A DNA stretch of 64,000 nucleotides from an uncultured Desulfatiglans sp. (GCA_900498135.1 LR026961.1:1242520-1306519); one strand, 5' to 3'. Positions 7,129 to 59,957 are shown, counted from the first letter of the stretch. A program made the numbers and translations. The notes: generated from the letters alone by a model not told the origin.

Positions 7129-7869
7129 CTATCCCTTACGGGGGCGGGCAGGGCTCCCTTTGTCTTCCTCATCCTGGCTTTCGAGCGTGCCCAGCACCAC
7201 ATCCTGACCGCGCAGGATATGCTCCCGCACAATCCTTTCGACCCCCTCGGCATCCCGTTGGCGGATCCGTTCGAGCATCAGCCGGTGATCCTGATTGCTG
7301 GTCTTCGCCATGTCTTCGATCTTCAGGATCACCTGGCGATAGCGAAAGATCTGGTCCCTCAAGCCGCTGATCATCCGGATCAACCGCGGACTGCGGCTCA
7401 ACCCGTACAAGAGATCGTGGAAGGCGGTGTTGATCTTCGCCAGGGCCTCCGTATCCCCCTTTTCCAAGGCCCTTTCGTACTCTCTGATCTTCTCCTCCAG
7501 CGGCACGAGATCCGCCTCCGTGTGCTTCAACGCCGCCAGCCGCGCAGCGTAGCTCTCGAGGACGGAGCGGATGCCGAAGGTCTCCTCGATCTCGCTTCGA
7601 CTGAGCCCCATGACAAAAAAACCGCCGCTCGGGTTCTGGCTCAGGAGGCCCTCCTTCTCGAGCTTGTGGATCGCCTCCCGCACCGGGGTCCGGCTGATTC
7701 CCAGGGCGGAGGCGACTCGGCTCTCGACGATCCGGCTTCCTGCAGGCAACTGCCCTTTGACGATCGCTTTTTTCAGGTTTTCATAGACGTATTGACCGAG
7801 GGACTTTCTGGCCGGCACGGAGGCCAACGCCTTGAATAGGGGTTCTTCGCCTTTGGTCGATTTTCGCAT
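7129..7869 (-). CDS. GntR-family transcriptional regulator with FCD ligand domain
   Basis: This 246-aa protein, read from the ATG at 7869, has an N-terminal winged helix (LPAGSRIVESRVASALGISR then TPVREAIHKLEKEGL) and an all-helical C-terminal FCD domain containing the metal-ligand style AFHDLL and DHRLMLERI segments. The frame remains open upstream but that part overlaps the dehydrogenase gene. FCD regulators usually sense the acid or CoA ester of the pathway they control. It is embedded between the dehydrogenase and mutase genes. The palindrome CTGTATACAG in the cluster promoter at 12635-12644 is a plausible operator. Confidence 0.9.
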   Translation of the reverse strand: MRKSTKGEEPLFKALASVPARKSLGQYVYENLKKAIVKGQLPAGSRIVESRVASALGISRTPVREAIHKLEKEGLLSQNPSGGFFVMGLSRSEIEETFGIRSVLESYAARLAALKHTEADLVPLEEKIREYERALEKGDTEALAKINTAFHDLLYGLSRSPRLIRMISGLRDQIFRYRQVILKIEDMAKTSNQDHRLMLERIRQRDAEGVERIVREHILRGQDVVLGTLESQDEEDKGSPARPRKG

Positions 7870-7897
7870 CGATCGGGAACTTCCGTTGGAATGGCTC

Positions 7898-9031
7898 TCA
7901 GAGCCCGGCCCATCGGGCCAGATTGGTCTGCAGAATCTCATGGGTACCCCCGCCGTAGAGCAGGAACCGGCTGTCTCGATAGTATCGCTGAGGGGTGTAT
8001 TCCATGCTGTAAGCATAGGCGCCGAAAACGCGCGTGGCTTCGTCCGCGGCGCGGCATGCCGCTTCGGTGGCGAAATACTTCGCCATCGAAGCCTCCTTGA
8101 GGCAGGCGACCCGATCGTCGATCAGATGGGTCGTCTTATAGGTCAACAGATTGGAGGCCTCCAGGTCGGTGGCCATGTTCGCTATTTTGGCCTGGATCAG
8201 CTGATACTTTCCGATGACCCGGCCGAATTGCGCCCGCTCCCTGGCATAGCGGATGGAGTCCGTCAGGCATGCCCGCTGCAGCCCGATCGCGAGAGCCGCC
8301 GTCATAATCCGGATCTCGGCCAAGATAGTCATCAGGTTGCTGAGCCCACGTCCCTCTCCCCCGAGGCGGTGCGTCTTCGGGATCCGGCACTGGTTGAACG
8401 CGATCTCGGAGATCTTCGTCGTCCGTGTGCCCAGCAGATCAAAGGCCTTGCTGTGTGAAAAACCGGGGGTGCCCGCCGGGATAAAGAAGAAATTGAGGCC
8501 CTTGAGCTTTTTGGCTGGATCCGTCTGGCACAGAACCGTATAAAAATCCGCCACCGGTCCATTGGTAACCCAGGTCTTCATGCCGTTCAGCACGTAGCCG
8601 TCGTCGGTCTCCTCCGCCAGGGTGCTGACATTCCCCAGATCGGAACCGGCCTCCGGCTCGGTCAGGCAGAAACAGGCGACGAGATCTCCCCGCATGGCCG
8701 GCCGCCAATACCTCTCCCGCATCTCCTCCGTGCCGAAGTGGAACAGAAAATTCGTTCCCATGAGGCATTGCATAGCCGTAATGGCAGCGACACTCATCAG
8801 CCCCCGCGCCAATTCTTCACAGCTGATGCAGAAGAGCGTCGTGTTCCCGCCGGACCCTCCGTCCTTTTTCGGGTAGCGCAGCCCGAAGACCCCCAACTCC
8901 CCGATCCGCCGGAACATCTCCCTCGGGAAGTCGCCTTTTTCATCCAGTTCCTGGGCCTGGGGAATCAACTCATGGTCCACAAAGCGGGCCATGCTTTTTC
9001 GGATCAGCGTCTCCGCGTTCGATCTTATCAT
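7898..9031 (-). CDS. Acyl-CoA dehydrogenase (LCAD/isovaleryl type)
   Basis: This is a 377-aa FAD-dependent acyl-CoA dehydrogenase that oxidises an acyl-CoA to the enoyl-CoA, passing electrons to the adjacent ETF. Start at 9031 is chosen because GGAGGATTGC precedes that ATG; an upstream GTG at 9043 lacks a site. The FAD segment CFCLTEPEAGSD is present, as is YARERAQFGRVIGKYQ. The usual catalytic Glu of YEGT is absent: the C-terminal motif reads LLYGGGTHEI, as in long-chain and isovaleryl types where the base sits on another helix. The equivalent stretch here, LTDSIRYARER, offers an Asp. Confidence 0.93.
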   Translation of the reverse strand: MIRSNAETLIRKSMARFVDHELIPQAQELDEKGDFPREMFRRIGELGVFGLRYPKKDGGSGGNTTLFCISCEELARGLMSVAAITAMQCLMGTNFLFHFGTEEMRERYWRPAMRGDLVACFCLTEPEAGSDLGNVSTLAEETDDGYVLNGMKTWVTNGPVADFYTVLCQTDPAKKLKGLNFFFIPAGTPGFSHSKAFDLLGTRTTKISEIAFNQCRIPKTHRLGGEGRGLSNLMTILAEIRIMTAALAIGLQRACLTDSIRYARERAQFGRVIGKYQLIQAKIANMATDLEASNLLTYKTTHLIDDRVACLKEASMAKYFATEAACRAADEATRVFGAYAYSMEYTPQRYYRDSRFLLYGGGTHEILQTNLARWAGL

Positions 9032-9182
9032 GCAATCCTCCACTGCAGCGGGATATCCTGGCAGCCCGTTTCAGAGGCCTGTCCCGGCCTCGGACCGGCT
9101 TCCCTCAAGAAAAGGGATATGCGTCCTCCTACAATGTTCAACACCCCGGGCCGCGCATGTTCTTTCTTGGATCGAGATCCCA

Positions 9183-10373
9183 TCAACCCAGCGCTCCGCT
9201 CTTCAACTGTTCGATCATTTGCGGAACGACATCCCGCAGATCGCCGACGATCCCCCAGTCCGCCACCTGGAATATAGGCGCACGCGGATCTTTGTTGACA
9301 GCGACGATGTAGCGCGCATTCATCATGCCGGCCCGGTGCTGTATCGCCCCTGAAATCCCGCAGGCGATGTAGAGCTCGGGTCTCACGGACTGCCCCGTCT
9401 GTCCAACCTGGCGATCGGCGCCAATCCACCCCTCCTCGACCGCCACGCGGGTCCCCGCTGTCACCCCCCCCAGCAGACCCGCCAACTCTTCGAGCACCTC
9501 GAATCCCGCCCGATCACCGACCCCTCGTCCACCGGCGACAATCACCCGGGCCTGCGACAGATCGACGCGTTGCCGCTCCTCCTTGACCACCTCCAGCACG
9601 ACCGTTCCAGCCTCATTCTCCGAAAGCTCCACCGGAAAGGGGATCATCTCCCCCTGGTTCTCCGGAATTTCGCGGGCCTCCATCACGCCAGGTCTCACAG
9701 TCGCCATCTGGGGGCGTGAAAACCGATTTGCAATAGTGGCCATGACGTTTCCCCCGAAGGCCGGCCGGGTCTGGAGCAGAATCTGCTCCCCGGGATCGAT
9801 CGCGAGCTCGGTGCAGTCGGCCGTCAACCCGATGCCCACCCGCCGGGAAACCCGGGGCGCAAGATCCCGGCCCACATGGGTCGCCCCCATCAGGAGAACA
9901 TTCGGCTTGTGCTTTTCGATGAGGTTTTCGATGACATCCGTGTAAGGCAGACTGCGGTAATCCCTCAGGACAGGGTCCTCTCCCAGAAAGACCTTTTCCG
10001 CGCCATGCCGCACGAGCGTTTCGGCGAGAGCGCCGACCCCGTCGCCCAGAAGCAGGGCCGCCACCTCCTGGCCGAGTGCCTCGGCAAGCTCGCGGGCCTT
10101 GCCCAAAAGCTCCAGGGACACGGGGTGCAGCACCCCGCCCCGCTGCTCGGCAAAGACCCACACGCCCGATCGATCGCTGAAATCCGGTATCTCCCGAGGT
10201 CGGATGTCGCTCTTGACAGCCTCCAGTTTGCATACCGCCAAACAGGCGCCGCAGCCCGTACAGCGCTCGAGGATACGGGCCTTGCCGTCTTCCAGTTCGA
10301 TCGCCCCGTAAGGGCATGCCTGGATACAGCGCTTGCAGCCGTTGCACAACTCTCTTTCGATCCAAACCGTCAT
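9183..10373 (-). CDS. etfA: Electron transfer flavoprotein alpha subunit with N-terminal 2x[4Fe-4S] ferredoxin domain
   Basis: This 396-aa protein begins with two ferredoxin motifs (CNGCKRCIQACP and CTGCGACLAVCK, residues about 10-50), followed by an EtfA body ending in the FAD-binding region RPELYIACGISGAIQHRAGM and VNKDPRAPIF. The start at 10373 has GGGGA about 8 bases upstream; a GTG 18 bases earlier would lie over that site. Ferredoxin-fused EtfA occurs in anaerobes and lets electrons from acyl-CoA oxidation reach iron-sulfur membrane carriers. It lies 49 bases after etfB and upstream of the dehydrogenase gene. Confidence 0.95.
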   Translation of the reverse strand: MTVWIERELCNGCKRCIQACPYGAIELEDGKARILERCTGCGACLAVCKLEAVKSDIRPREIPDFSDRSGVWVFAEQRGGVLHPVSLELLGKARELAEALGQEVAALLLGDGVGALAETLVRHGAEKVFLGEDPVLRDYRSLPYTDVIENLIEKHKPNVLLMGATHVGRDLAPRVSRRVGIGLTADCTELAIDPGEQILLQTRPAFGGNVMATIANRFSRPQMATVRPGVMEAREIPENQGEMIPFPVELSENEAGTVVLEVVKEERQRVDLSQARVIVAGGRGVGDRAGFEVLEELAGLLGGVTAGTRVAVEEGWIGADRQVGQTGQSVRPELYIACGISGAIQHRAGMMNARYIVAVNKDPRAPIFQVADWGIVGDLRDVVPQMIEQLKSGALG

Positions 10374-41119: not shown

Positions 41120-41155
41120 GAACAGGGGAAGACCTTTTGCGATCTTCCCCTGTTC
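41120..41155 (-). terminator. Hairpin after the CHAPA-repeat peptide gene
   Basis: GAACAGGGGAAGA and TCTTCCCCTGTTC (41120-41132 with 41143-41155) form a perfect 13-bp stem around a 10-base loop, 20 bases after the stop of the 51-aa ORF. The following TATTTG is only partly U-rich. Its position supports a transcript that ends after the peptide gene. Confidence 0.7.
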
Positions 41156-41175: not shown

Positions 41176-41331
41176 TTATGCCGGGGCATGGCATGATGGC
41201 GCGTGACATGCCGGGGAATGGCAGGCGGGCGCATGACATGCCGGCGCGTGACAAGCCGGGGCGTGGCATGCGGGGGCATGACAACCAGCGGCATACGACA
41301 CCTTTTTCTCCACTTTCTTAAGGTTCAACAA
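41176..41331 (-). CDS. Candidate RiPP precursor with seven CHAPA-type pentapeptide repeats
   Basis: A 51-codon ORF starts with TTG at 41331, 8 bases after a perfect Shine-Dalgarno AAAGGAGGTGA, and ends with TAA. A 16-residue head (MLNLKKVEKKVSYAAG) is followed by seven Cys-His-x-Pro-x repeats: four CHAPA, one CHSPA, one CHAPS and a final CHAPA at the C-terminus. Codons vary at third positions between repeats (TGT/TGC, CAT/CAC, GCC/GCG, CCC/CCG/CCA) while residues hardly change, indicating selection on the peptide. It lies 100 bases downstream of a B12-radical SAM gene with a PqqD-like domain. Modification of Cys or His is inferred; metal binding is an alternative. I recognise no named family. 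Confidence 0.8.
   Translation of the reverse strand: MLNLKKVEKKVSYAAGCHAPACHAPACHAPACHAPACHSPACHAPSCHAPA
41179..41283 (-). repeat. Seven tandem 15-bp coding repeats
   Basis: These 105 bases are seven in-frame 15-base units encoding the CHxPx repeats. Units differ mainly at synonymous sites, so the array is not a fresh DNA slippage product. Confidence 0.85.
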
Positions 41332-41431
41332 GGCCTTCACCTCCTTTCACACACAGCTGGGGGTTAACCTCTGGACCGACTCATTTCATCGTCGCCTCAG
41401 TTATCGAGGCGGGCAGGGGATTCAGGGGCGG

Positions 41432-43453
41432 TCAGCTCCCGAATGCAACGAGGTGGCTCCGAGCCAACATTTCGAGCGCTTCTTCACAGGATTTCAGAAA
41501 TCCCTCGCGGGTCATGCCCCGACCGTAATGATCGTAAAGTTCCCTTGCGATCGTTTCCAGGGGTGAACCGCCGTCGCAGAGCGCCAGGAAATCCCTGCCA
41601 AACGCGTTGATCTCGTTGACCTCCAGCATATCGTCTTCCTGTCTGAAGGCCAACAGCGTCTCCTGGGGTTGGTAGACCTTGTCAAAGATCCCGGATTTCA
41701 AGTCCATTATAATCACAGGGAGATCAAAATCAAACCCGCCGATCACGATTCCCTGATCCCTTTTCGGTATCAGATCGGACAACCGGTTCAAATCGATATC
41801 GAAATGGGTTTTGTTAGAAATGTGTTTGCCGGCCTCGAGCGACAGCATCTCGTATTTGAGGATGTCCTTCAGGTAAGGGATCCGGACCGTTTTGCGCGAC
41901 CCCAGCCTCTCGATGACGAACGGCTCGAAATGCCGATAACAGTCCTGGGGAGACAGGCTCCACGCCTCGCGGGCCGTCCGAAGCCGCAGCCATTCCAGCC
42001 AGTCCATGAATAGATCGGAGACGGAGATCTCCAGTTCCAGACCAAGGAGCAGGAGGGTCTTCGGCAGAAGCCTCACCATCAGGGGAAAGTAGCTCGCGAC
42101 GGCATTCAACTCCGCGAGGGGTCGCGCACGGGTGGGCAGGTTGTAGAAGCTGCTGAAGATCAGGGGATGCGCATCGATCATCGCTTCGTCCGCTTCGAGC
42201 CTCCGCCCTCCGTCGAATTCGAGACCGAGCGCGAAGTAGGTGTCGACCTCCCGCACCAGCCGATCCGCATAACGGGCGTGCAGCTCGGTCCCGGGCAGGA
42301 CCGTCGGCAGCTGGATCAGCGGATTGTTGTTGCCGACGATGCCCGCCCGCAGTGCGAGCGTCAGCGTAGCGTCCACATCCTCCTTTTCCTCTTCCGGAAA
42401 ACCGATGACGAAGCTGAGCGTAGGGATGATGCCCTGCTCCGCCGTTTCCACGACACGCTGATAGAGGATGCCGTGGTCGATCCGCTTGCGGATGAAGGCC
42501 AGGGTCTTTTTGGAGCCCGAGTCGATCCCGTAGCACATGCTTTCGCAGCCCGCCTCGCGCATGAGGGCCAGGAGATCCCGGTCGACGCTGTCCAAACGCG
42601 AGATGCAGTACCACGGGATGCGCTCCAGGCCCCTTTCCAGAACCAGCCGGCAGAATCCTTCCACAAAGGAGCGGGTCGCCGTGAACTGATCATAGGCCAG
42701 AAGGAAACACTCCGCCCCATAAAGGCGATGGACCTTCTCCATCTCCCCCACCAGGCGTTCGACGGAGTAAGTCCGCACACGTCCGCGCCACATGCGCGAC
42801 TCGGAACAATACACGCAACGATGAGGGCAGCCCCGTCCCGCCTCGAGGATGGCGATGCTGCGCGGCAGGTTACAGGCCCGCCGGTACACCTCGAGCGGCG
42901 GGAGAAAGCCGTAGTCCGGATAAGGCAACGCATCGAGGTGTGCGACCAGATCCCGGTCAGGATTCCGCATAACGCTGCCACCGTCGCGCCAGGTCACGCC
43001 TTCGACTCCTTCCCCCCTCCCTCCGGCTGCATATTGCGCGACCAGATCGCAAAAGGTCCGTTCGCCTTCGCCACGGACCACCGCATCCACCTCGGGAAAC
43101 CCCTCCAGCGTCCATTCGTCGGCGAAGGCCGCATTGTGCCCGCCAAGGACGATCTTGAGATCCCGGCGGCGAGCTTTGAGCCGCCGGCAGATCTGAAGCA
43201 CCGCCGGGTAGGTGGTGCACTGGGCCGAGAACCCTACGAGATCCGGCGATTCGGACAGGATGCGCTCTGCACAGTCATCGTAGATGTGCGGCCCCAATCT
43301 CAGGCTGCCTGTCCGAATCTCGAGAACGAAATCGAGACAAACCACCTCGTGGGGCGTTTCTTTCAAGGCGGTCGCCAGATTGACCAGCCCCAGCGGGGGA
43401 AGATTGTACATGGGCTCCAGATAGAAAGGGGGAAAGACCAGACTGATCCTCAT
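41432..43453 (-). CDS. B12-binding radical SAM enzyme with C-terminal PqqD-like domain
   Basis: This 673-aa protein, read from the ATG at 43453 (GAGGAG upstream), has an N-terminal cobalamin-binding-type Rossmann domain (residues about 1-170, VFPPFYLEPMYNLPPLGLV and IVLGGHNAAF), then a radical SAM barrel with CPHRCVYC (Cys209, Cys213, Cys216), a helical region, and a C-terminal segment of about 80 residues (594-673; LEVNEINAFGRDFLALCDGG) resembling PqqD, the RiPP recognition element. This order resembles RiPP-maturing B12 radical SAM enzymes. The CHAPA-repeat ORF follows at once. The chemistry (methylation, cross-link or other) is not deducible. Confidence 0.88.
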   Translation of the reverse strand: MRISLVFPPFYLEPMYNLPPLGLVNLATALKETPHEVVCLDFVLEIRTGSLRLGPHIYDDCAERILSESPDLVGFSAQCTTYPAVLQICRRLKARRRDLKIVLGGHNAAFADEWTLEGFPEVDAVVRGEGERTFCDLVAQYAAGGRGEGVEGVTWRDGGSVMRNPDRDLVAHLDALPYPDYGFLPPLEVYRRACNLPRSIAILEAGRGCPHRCVYCSESRMWRGRVRTYSVERLVGEMEKVHRLYGAECFLLAYDQFTATRSFVEGFCRLVLERGLERIPWYCISRLDSVDRDLLALMREAGCESMCYGIDSGSKKTLAFIRKRIDHGILYQRVVETAEQGIIPTLSFVIGFPEEEKEDVDATLTLALRAGIVGNNNPLIQLPTVLPGTELHARYADRLVREVDTYFALGLEFDGGRRLEADEAMIDAHPLIFSSFYNLPTRARPLAELNAVASYFPLMVRLLPKTLLLLGLELEISVSDLFMDWLEWLRLRTAREAWSLSPQDCYRHFEPFVIERLGSRKTVRIPYLKDILKYEMLSLEAGKHISNKTHFDIDLNRLSDLIPKRDQGIVIGGFDFDLPVIIMDLKSGIFDKVYQPQETLLAFRQEDDMLEVNEINAFGRDFLALCDGGSPLETIARELYDHYGRGMTREGFLKSCEEALEMLARSHLVAFGS

Positions 43454-43522: not shown

Positions 43523-43551
43523 ATCCTATTGCAAGTCGCCGCCTGCGTCAA
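43523..43551 (-). promoter_or_regulatory. Promoter of the radical SAM/CHAPA locus
   Basis: On the minus strand TTGACG (43551-43546), a 17-base spacer and TAGGAT (43528-43523) lie about 70 bases before the ATG at 43453. A transcript from here would cover the radical SAM gene, the peptide gene and end at the 41120-41155 hairpin. Confidence 0.6.
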
Positions 43552-43650: not shown

Positions 43651-43790
43651 GTTTCCATCCGGAAATGGTCTTTTGGGCCAATCTCGGCGTCAATCTGCCC
43701 GTTTGCTTGTGCGGCGACCTAGAGGTCGCCTCCGCACAAACGGTTGATTTCCTTGATATTGGCCAAAAATTTTCATTTCCGGATGGAAAC
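43651..43790. repeat. Interspersed repeat family 1, full copy with 17-bp terminal inverted repeats
   Basis: GTTTCCATCCGGAAATG (43651-43667) is the exact reverse complement of 43774-43790. Inner sequences also pair (TTTTGGGCCAAT with ATTGGCCAAAA) and the centre is GGCGACC-TAGA-GGTCGCC flanked by GTTTGC-type repeats, so the 140-bp element folds as one long hairpin. It encodes nothing and resembles a MITE or REP-like element. A truncated second copy follows to about 43890. Confidence 0.8.
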
Positions 43791-43965
43791 TTTACCCGGC
43801 CGGATGGTCTTTTCCGGATGGATATCAGGTTCAATCCGTAACGGGTCTTTTGGGCCAATCTCGGCGCCCATCCCTGTTTGCCCGCCGACGAAAAGGACGC
43901 GGCTGGAGCGCTCATCGACCACCGAAACTATCCGCTTTCAACCTGTCATGGAAAGGCCTTTGCCT

Positions 43966-59582: not shown

Positions 59583-59775
59583 GGTCTCCAATCCGAAAAT
59601 GAGGATTTTTCTTCACACCCCTCAGGTGCGCAGTCCCACCCCTGCGGGGCGGGTCCCGGTCTGCCAAATATCAAGGAAATCAAGCGTTTGCACGGAGGCG
59701 ACCTGGTGGTCGCCGCACAAGCAAACGTGCGGATTGACGCCGAAATCGGCCCAAAAGCCATCTCCGGATGGGAAC
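59583..59775. repeat. Family 1 repeat interrupted by a family 2 repeat
   Basis: Termini are GGTCTCCAATCCGAAAATG and CATCTCCGGATGGGAAC. The core contains CGGAGGCGACC-TGGT-GGTCGCCGCACAAGCAAAC. A family 2 unit (59611-59660; CTTCACACCC through GGGTCCCGGT) lies inside, so the younger element inserted into, or was captured by, the older. Confidence 0.75.
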
Positions 59776-59816: not shown

Positions 59817-59957
59817 GTTTCCAATCCGGAAATGAGGATTTTTTGCCAATATCAAGGAAATCAAGCATTTGCGCGGAGGCGACCTGGTGGTCGCCGCACA
59901 AGCAAACGTGCGGATTGACGCCGAGATTGGCAAAAAAGACCATTTCCGGATGGAAAC
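59817..59957. repeat. Family 1 repeat, full copy
   Basis: GTTTCCAATCCGGAAATG and CATTTCCGGATGGAAAC bound 141 bases with inner TTTTTTGCCAAT/ATTGGCAAAAAA pairing and the GGCGACC-TGGT-GGTCGCC centre. Its core is nearly identical to the copy at 59583-59775, suggesting recent duplication or gene conversion. Confidence 0.8.

Follow-up and report, generated by a model that had tools for sequence, protein, structure and literature searches.

The 64,000-nucleotide stretch of DNA analysed here (hereafter, the window) comes from an uncultured Desulfatiglans sp. (GCA_900498135.1 LR026961.1:1242520-1306519). At the locus of interest, it carries three genes on the minus strand: (i) a gene for a B12-type radical SAM enzyme; (ii) 100 nt downstream of it, a short open reading frame (ORF) for a repetitive peptide; and (iii) a gene for a methyltransferase fused to a zinc ribbon (Table 1).

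Table 1. Genes, domains and sites of the locus, in positions of the window
Feature	Position	Strand	Basis and remarks
B12-type radical SAM enzyme, 673 aa	41432-43453	minus	ATG at 43453; Pfam, orthologues, AlphaFold model
B12-binding-type Rossmann domain, residues 16-137	43043-43408	minus	Pfam PF02310, 76.2 bits (cut-off 32.1; E-value 2.5e-21)
CxxxCxxC motif (CPHRCVYC), residues 209-216	42806-42829	minus	three Cys invariant in 28 homologues
C-terminal TglI-like module, residues 445-673	41435-42121	minus	structure alignment; PqqD in homologues
Precursor peptide ORF	41176-41331	minus	TTG start at 41331, 51 codons; sequence and specificity test
Ribosome-binding site AAAGGAGGTGA of the peptide gene	41337-41347	minus	sequence
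13-bp perfect inverted repeat, terminator- or processing-like, between peptide and methyltransferase genes	41120-41155	minus	sequence
Promoter-like site TTGACG-17-TAGGAT upstream of the radical SAM gene	43523-43551	minus	consensus scan 9/12, weak
Trm112-like zinc ribbon fused to OvoA-C/OvoM/OvsM-family methyltransferase, 316 aa	39982-40932	minus	TIGR04345, PDB relatives

The product of the peptide ORF is LLNLKKVEKKVSYAAGCHAPACHAPACHAPACHAPACHSPACHAPSCHAPA, that is, a leader (LLNLKKVEKKVSYAAG) followed by seven CHxPx units. An earlier note, made from the sequence of the window, had described this ORF and had argued that its repeats vary mainly at synonymous sites. Both its coordinates and its description were confirmed and, when all pairs of the seven repeats are compared, 56 of the 68 codon differences are indeed synonymous (12 are non-synonymous). 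The same is seen in a close relative: in a genome of the same genus, whose enzyme is 97% identical, the peptide shows seven synonymous and no non-synonymous codon changes. An alternative in-frame GTG upstream of the TTG would give a peptide of 54 aa. The sequence AAAGGAGGTGR, or one close to it, lies 5' of the peptide gene in nearly all homologues. The peptide belongs to no NCBIfam, Pfam or Rfam family at cut-off, and the Rfam search of the window region gave no match.

Regarding the boundaries of the unit, the promoter that had been proposed upstream of the enzyme gene exists as a site, but it is a weak one. Similarly, a two-gene unit ended by a hairpin had been put forward: the inverted repeat is there (and similar hairpins with T-runs lie after the peptide gene at loci L009 and L011), but the methyltransferase gene beyond it belongs, by its conservation, to the unit too. 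In the window, a 20-mer (CTTTTGGGCCAATCTCGGCG) occurs as an interspersed repeat, four times with 0-2 mismatches, in two pairs of copies about 180 nt apart (43670-43689 and 43847-43866 on the plus strand; 59738-59757 and 59919-59938 on the minus strand).

The radical SAM enzyme and its C-terminal module

The enzyme is, by its sequence, a member of the B12-binding radical SAM superfamily, and its use of cobalamin is predicted. As the earlier note had stated, it has a B12-type N-domain and a CPHRCVYC motif; both the B12-binding domain and the Radical_SAM domain (72.5 bits against a cut-off of 29.5; E-value 5.9e-20) exceed their Pfam cut-offs. Six Cys outside the CxxxCxxC motif (residues 79, 194, 249, 268, 283 and 307) are invariant in the 28 homologues as well, and could possibly serve as ligands of an extra cluster or as catalytic residues.

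The AlphaFold model of the enzyme, for which the 28 homologues were used as input, has a mean pLDDT of 91. Residues 1-617 of this model resemble CysS, OxsB, TsrM, AprD4 and TokK; AprD4, which is not known to use cobalamin, was the top PDB match in a single-sequence search with the enzyme. The nearest named families are ApyD (262 bits) and then BchE, both far below cut-off. Membership of ApyD (NF050148, cut-off of 750 bits) was hence rejected, and so was that of TIGR03975, the RiPP maturation radical SAM C-methyltransferases (111.2 against 281.85 bits). With these B12-radical SAM RiPP enzymes the window system has in common the B12 domain, the radical SAM core, the RRE and a ribosomal peptide, but it differs from them in precursor, partners and, presumably, reaction.

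In the C-terminal part of the enzyme, residues 445-673 align with TglI (VIA-align, chains 8hi7_A and 8hci_A: Z 13.8, 202-203 residues, rmsd 3.6-3.7 Å) and also match NGO1945 (3dee, Z 13.4), with an RRE-type winged helix at about residues 563-673. TglI itself ends in an RRE (PMC9016710). Given this fold, the PqqD-like segment recognized in the earlier note is part of a larger, TglI-like substrate-binding module. As for Pfam, PqqD is matched by 16 of the 28 homologues (best E-value, 9.1e-6), whereas the window enzyme reaches 16.7 bits and falls below the cut-off of 23.4. When the C-terminal domain is folded alone from its single sequence, the pLDDT is 45, and a search of the PDB with its sequence profile found no significant relative; in consequence, the claim of an RRE rests on the full-length model and on Pfam. 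That the enzyme carries an RRE is supported by the modelled fold and by Pfam in its relatives, while neither PqqD nor HxsA, the comparisons drawn before, turns out to be the best one for the system.

The peptide across genomes and its probable selenocysteine form

The enzyme set comprises 34 distinct genomes, the window included. Six relatives of the enzyme, at 53-61% identity, were found in genome contigs, and whole-genome searches detected it in 11 of 46 genomes of the family, 12 of 395 of the phylum and 15 of 39 of the order of genome G427. The named records with the enzyme are MAGs labelled Desulfobacterales, Desulfobacteraceae, Syntrophobacteraceae or, more loosely, Deltaproteobacteria or Pseudomonadota.

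Translation of the loci places the peptide within about 600 nt downstream of the enzyme gene in 33 of the 34 genomes. At these 33 loci the leader is conserved (M-hydrophobic-x-V-K-x-V-E-K-K or, more loosely, M-x-x-x-K-x-V/I-E-K-K) and is followed by one to nine CHxP (or UGA-HAP) units, the Cys-type peptides having four to nine; the copy at L050 is broken by masked bases. In the only enzyme-bearing genome without the peptide (G444, locus L162), the frame of the enzyme continues into VPGPPESPVRR and the UH unit is absent, a state that could stem from deletion of the peptide with fusion of its tail to the enzyme, or from a faulty assembly.

The pairing is specific. A DNA pattern of three CHxP units was found in 10 of the 395 phylum genomes, always at the enzyme locus, and the reversed-pattern control gave 0. 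These 10 genomes are the full set of enzyme-positive ones with a Cys-type peptide; the remaining two of the 12 are of the selenocysteine (Sec) type described below. None of the 383 sampled genomes that lack the enzyme has the pattern. With the peptide kept at nearly all loci and the RRE supported, the proposal of a new RiPP-type system, formed by a B12-radical SAM enzyme with an RRE and a precursor peptide, has stood the tests in relatives that the earlier note had named, and is well supported; the modification of the peptide is predicted.

Fourteen genomes of one family have a shortened peptide with only one unit, UGA-His-Ala-Pro-(Thr/Ser), in which UGA takes the position of the Cys. An example is MLQVKDIEKKILVTAVDEAPTTYVVPT-UGA-HAPSESPVRR-stop; a few of these peptides retain further Cys-His before the UGA. 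On the enzyme tree, the Sec-type genomes form one clade (support 100/99), apart from the loss in G444. The codons that follow the UGA vary synonymously only (CAT/CAC for His; GCT/GCA/GCC for Ala; CCA/CCG/CCC for Pro), the fourth residue being Thr or Ser, but the stretch TCT CCG GTN CGG AGA farther on is nearly frozen in its nucleotides. Such a combination is typical of a coding sequence that also has to form a hairpin. TCTCCG and CGGAGA can form a SECIS-like stem with a GTN loop, which starts 21 nt after the UGA, a distance within the range of bacterial SECIS elements. The stem is near-invariant and shows no covariation, and energy folding is mixed (of five minimum-energy folds, two favour a competing pairing). 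Searches for a tRNA-Sec detected one, with anticodon TCA, in two (G427 and G295) of the three Sec-type genomes covered, but none in the third, the fragmented MAG that holds L012. These features suggest that the UGA is read as Sec in the 14-genome clade.

Two further observations concern the distribution of both forms: (i) the genome of the window has a tRNA-Sec (G000:C1:3873649-3873742, L132), though its peptide contains Cys only; and (ii) in G448 (L165) the same enzyme is followed by two peptides, one with CHAP (Cys type) and one with UHAP (Sec type), at about +35 and +505 nt.

The single unit of the Sec-type peptides places the chemistry in one adjacent Cys/Sec-His pair. For this reason, a reaction within one unit is the most likely, and a crosslink between repeats is unlikely.

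As regards known peptides, CefA, the Cys-every-fifth RiPP (NF038108), also has a Cys at every fifth residue. Membership of this family was rejected (19.3 bits for the window peptide and 16.3-19.5 for three others, against a cut-off of 30); NF038108 did not match the Sec-type peptides, and a literature search on CefA ('Cys-every-fifth') found nothing. We know of no CHxP or UHAP motif, nor of a B12 domain, in the thio(seleno)oxazole RiPPs that Lewis et al. are said to have described in 2021 as products of radical SAM enzymes; the likeness, judged by title alone, lies in the radical SAM enzyme and in a peptide that may contain Sec.

The methyltransferase and the other partners

The family TIGR04345 (4-mercaptohistidine N1-methyltransferase) gives 85.8 bits with the window methyltransferase and up to 98.4, against a cut-off of 170, and membership was not assigned. 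The best PDB relatives of the orthologue at L048 are OvsM (9bxh, 5.9e-18), OvoA (8khq) and OvoM (9bxl), and, according to the PDB titles, OvsM and OvoM are the N-methyltransferases of 5-selenohistidine and 5-thiohistidine, respectively. The sequence comparison thereby points to a relative of OvoM and OvsM, if only a distant one. The methyltransferase is the next gene in 17 of 19 Cys-type loci (in one of the two exceptions, L010, the locus is cut by the contig end) and is present in all 19 enzyme-positive genomes tested; in the three Sec-type genomes tested it is unlinked and lies elsewhere in the genome (one a fragment).

Two other genes go with the enzyme: (i) one for a class-V PLP enzyme, similar to SufS, to cysteine/cystine C-S lyase and, more weakly, to EgtE, which adjoins several loci or elsewhere sits beside an M3 oligopeptidase; and (ii) one for an M19 dipeptidase, which is next at the Sec-type loci and follows the methyltransferase at some Cys-type loci. 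In the 46 family genomes, Fisher tests, which ignore shared ancestry, relate the presence of the enzyme to that of the methyltransferase (11/11 with the enzyme vs 13/35 without it, p = 2.4e-4), the PLP enzyme (9/11 vs 3/35, p = 9.4e-6) and the M19 dipeptidase (8/11 vs 4/35, p = 2.3e-4). The PLP and M19 genes are often unlinked to the locus (the PLP copy of the window's own genome lies at G000:C1:4509151-4510251, minus strand); among the 11 enzyme-positive family genomes, two have no PLP gene and three no M19 gene, one such assembly being 66% complete. No conserved transporter was found next to the genes.

In most of the genomes that have the methyltransferase without the radical SAM enzyme, its gene abuts that of a metallopterin oxidoreductase, for which acetylene hydratase is the closest solved relative (2e7z, 9e-83). 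This arrangement is seen at L105:6487-9518 (with the metallopterin gene at 7425-9518), and also at L102, L104, L106, L107, L109, L110, L112 and L113. The metallopterin orthologue occurs in eight genomes, with zero overlap with the 11 enzyme-positive ones: among methyltransferase-positive genomes it is present in 0/11 of those with the radical SAM enzyme and in 8/13 of those without it (p = 0.002), while over all 46 family genomes the avoidance between both enzymes is not significant (p = 0.17). Taken together, the two gene arrangements pair the same methyltransferase with two unrelated anaerobic partners. The PLP orthologue is absent from the metallopterin genomes, as expected if it were needed only to cut a Cys-His conjugate. 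The metallopterin-dependent ergothioneine synthase (MES), whose N-terminal module is akin to acetylene hydratase, moves the sulfur of Cys onto trimethylhistidine and does not need O2 to do so (PMC9516567). By analogy with this anaerobic formation of a C-S bond on a histidine derivative, the acetylene-hydratase-like neighbour of the methyltransferase is a candidate anaerobic thiohistidine synthase. MES differs from the window system in that it involves neither a peptide nor a radical SAM enzyme, and yields the 2-thio compound ergothioneine.

A possible route to thiohistidines, and its alternatives

The ovothiol and ovoselenol routes known to us rest on O2-using iron enzymes, so the question at stake is how anaerobes could make such compounds. 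The kinship of the methyltransferase with OvoM and OvsM, the M19 dipeptidase and the C-S-lyase type of the PLP enzyme point to the breakdown of the peptide into a small thio- or selenohistidine. We infer the bond that is formed, its position, the order of the steps and the final product as follows: (i) the TglI-like RRE module, which forms the C-terminal part of the enzyme, would bind the leader (MLxVKxVEKK); (ii) in every CHxP unit, the enzyme would form one bond between the S of Cys (or, in one clade, the Se of Sec) and the imidazole ring of the His that follows it; (iii) the M3 oligopeptidase and the M19 dipeptidase would release the Cys-His or Sec-His conjugate; (iv) cleavage of the C-S(e) bond by the class-V PLP enzyme would yield 5-thio- or 5-selenohistidine; and (v) the OvoM/OvsM-like methyltransferase would N-methylate this compound to ovothiol or ovoselenol. 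The repeats would then be copies of one small-molecule unit, and the products would be histidine-based antioxidants with sulfur or selenium. We consider this O2-independent, RiPP-type route somewhat more probable than not. To the more specific proposal that an encoded Sec-His pair serves strict anaerobes as the starting point for ovoselenol, or for a different 5-selenohistidine, and that the Cys form found in the window leads to ovothiol, we would give an even chance.

The proposed route resembles the OvoA/OvoB ovothiol and OvsM ovoselenol pathways in the joining of Cys or Se to His, in the PLP C-S lyase and in an N-methyltransferase of the same homology group (PMC12631010). But OvoA relies on O2 and non-heme iron and takes His and Cys as free amino acids, while the substrate proposed here is a ribosomal peptide with Cys-His or Sec-His, and the catalyst a radical SAM enzyme. 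No paper that links ovothiol to a RiPP route was found in a literature search that did not extend to preprints and most subscription journals, the sole match being on TglHI (PMC9016710). In the TglHI pathway to 3-thiaglutamate, a peptide likewise serves as scaffold for the alteration of a Cys, which is then set free as a small molecule (PMC9016710); nevertheless, TglI works together with an MNIO enzyme that uses O2, and it is a tRNA-dependent ligase that supplies the Cys. If the route is real, it would be the first in which a thiohistidine is made on a ribosomal template; selenocysteine inserted during translation would, in a rare use, provide the selenium of a small molecule; and the B12-radical SAM family would gain a new reaction. 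In addition, the metallopterin enzyme would become a second partner, testable as an anaerobic thiohistidine synthase, and ribosomal peptides would have a new kind of use.

An unlikely alternative is that the enzyme is an ApyD-like C-methyltransferase, acting for instance on the C-beta of His or Pro in each CHxP unit, with a methylated peptide as mature product that the methyltransferase further decorates. We know of no solved relative of the enzyme that forms a Cys-His thioether; its best family matches are ApyD and then BchE, and its fold matches include TokK, CysS, TsrM and OxsB. Moreover, most B12-radical SAM enzymes methylate, and ApyD makes beta-methyltyrosine, which counts against the proposed thioether, although non-methylating members exist, including some that form C-S bonds (PMC10635010). 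Nevertheless, C-methylation leaves unexplained (i) the exchange of Cys for Sec at the sole retained site; (ii) the OvoM/OvsM kinship of the methyltransferase and its alternative metallopterin partner; and (iii) the PLP enzyme and the dipeptidase.

It is also possible, though quite improbable, that a thio- or selenohistidine is made but that the bond is made to another atom (a backbone carbon, or C2 as is the case in ergothioneine), or that the end product is not an ovothiol. All the evidence from gene context fits this equally well, and the methyltransferase is only distantly related to OvoM and OvsM; on the other hand, its relatives act on 5-thio- or 5-selenohistidine (PDB titles).

Equally doubtful is that the modified repeat peptide is itself the product, crosslinked or metal-binding and with a methanobactin-like role. 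The earlier note had favoured a product of this sort, either modified many times or able to bind metal. Metals can be bound by both Cys and His, and the Cys-type peptides offer four to nine Cys-His units. However, the number of repeats is variable, the Sec-type peptides hold one unit (some have no other Cys) and no conserved transporter adjoins the genes, all of which make such a final product less likely than a small molecule.

Finally, the repeat ORF might be no more than a functionless sequence of chance origin or low complexity, as its shortness, repetitiveness and rare start codon could suggest. This reading has next to no probability and was rejected, given that the three-unit pattern is confined to enzyme loci, with no occurrence in the reversed control or in the enzyme-negative genomes sampled, that leader and ribosome-binding site are conserved at 33 of the 34 loci, and that change between genus-mates is synonymous only.
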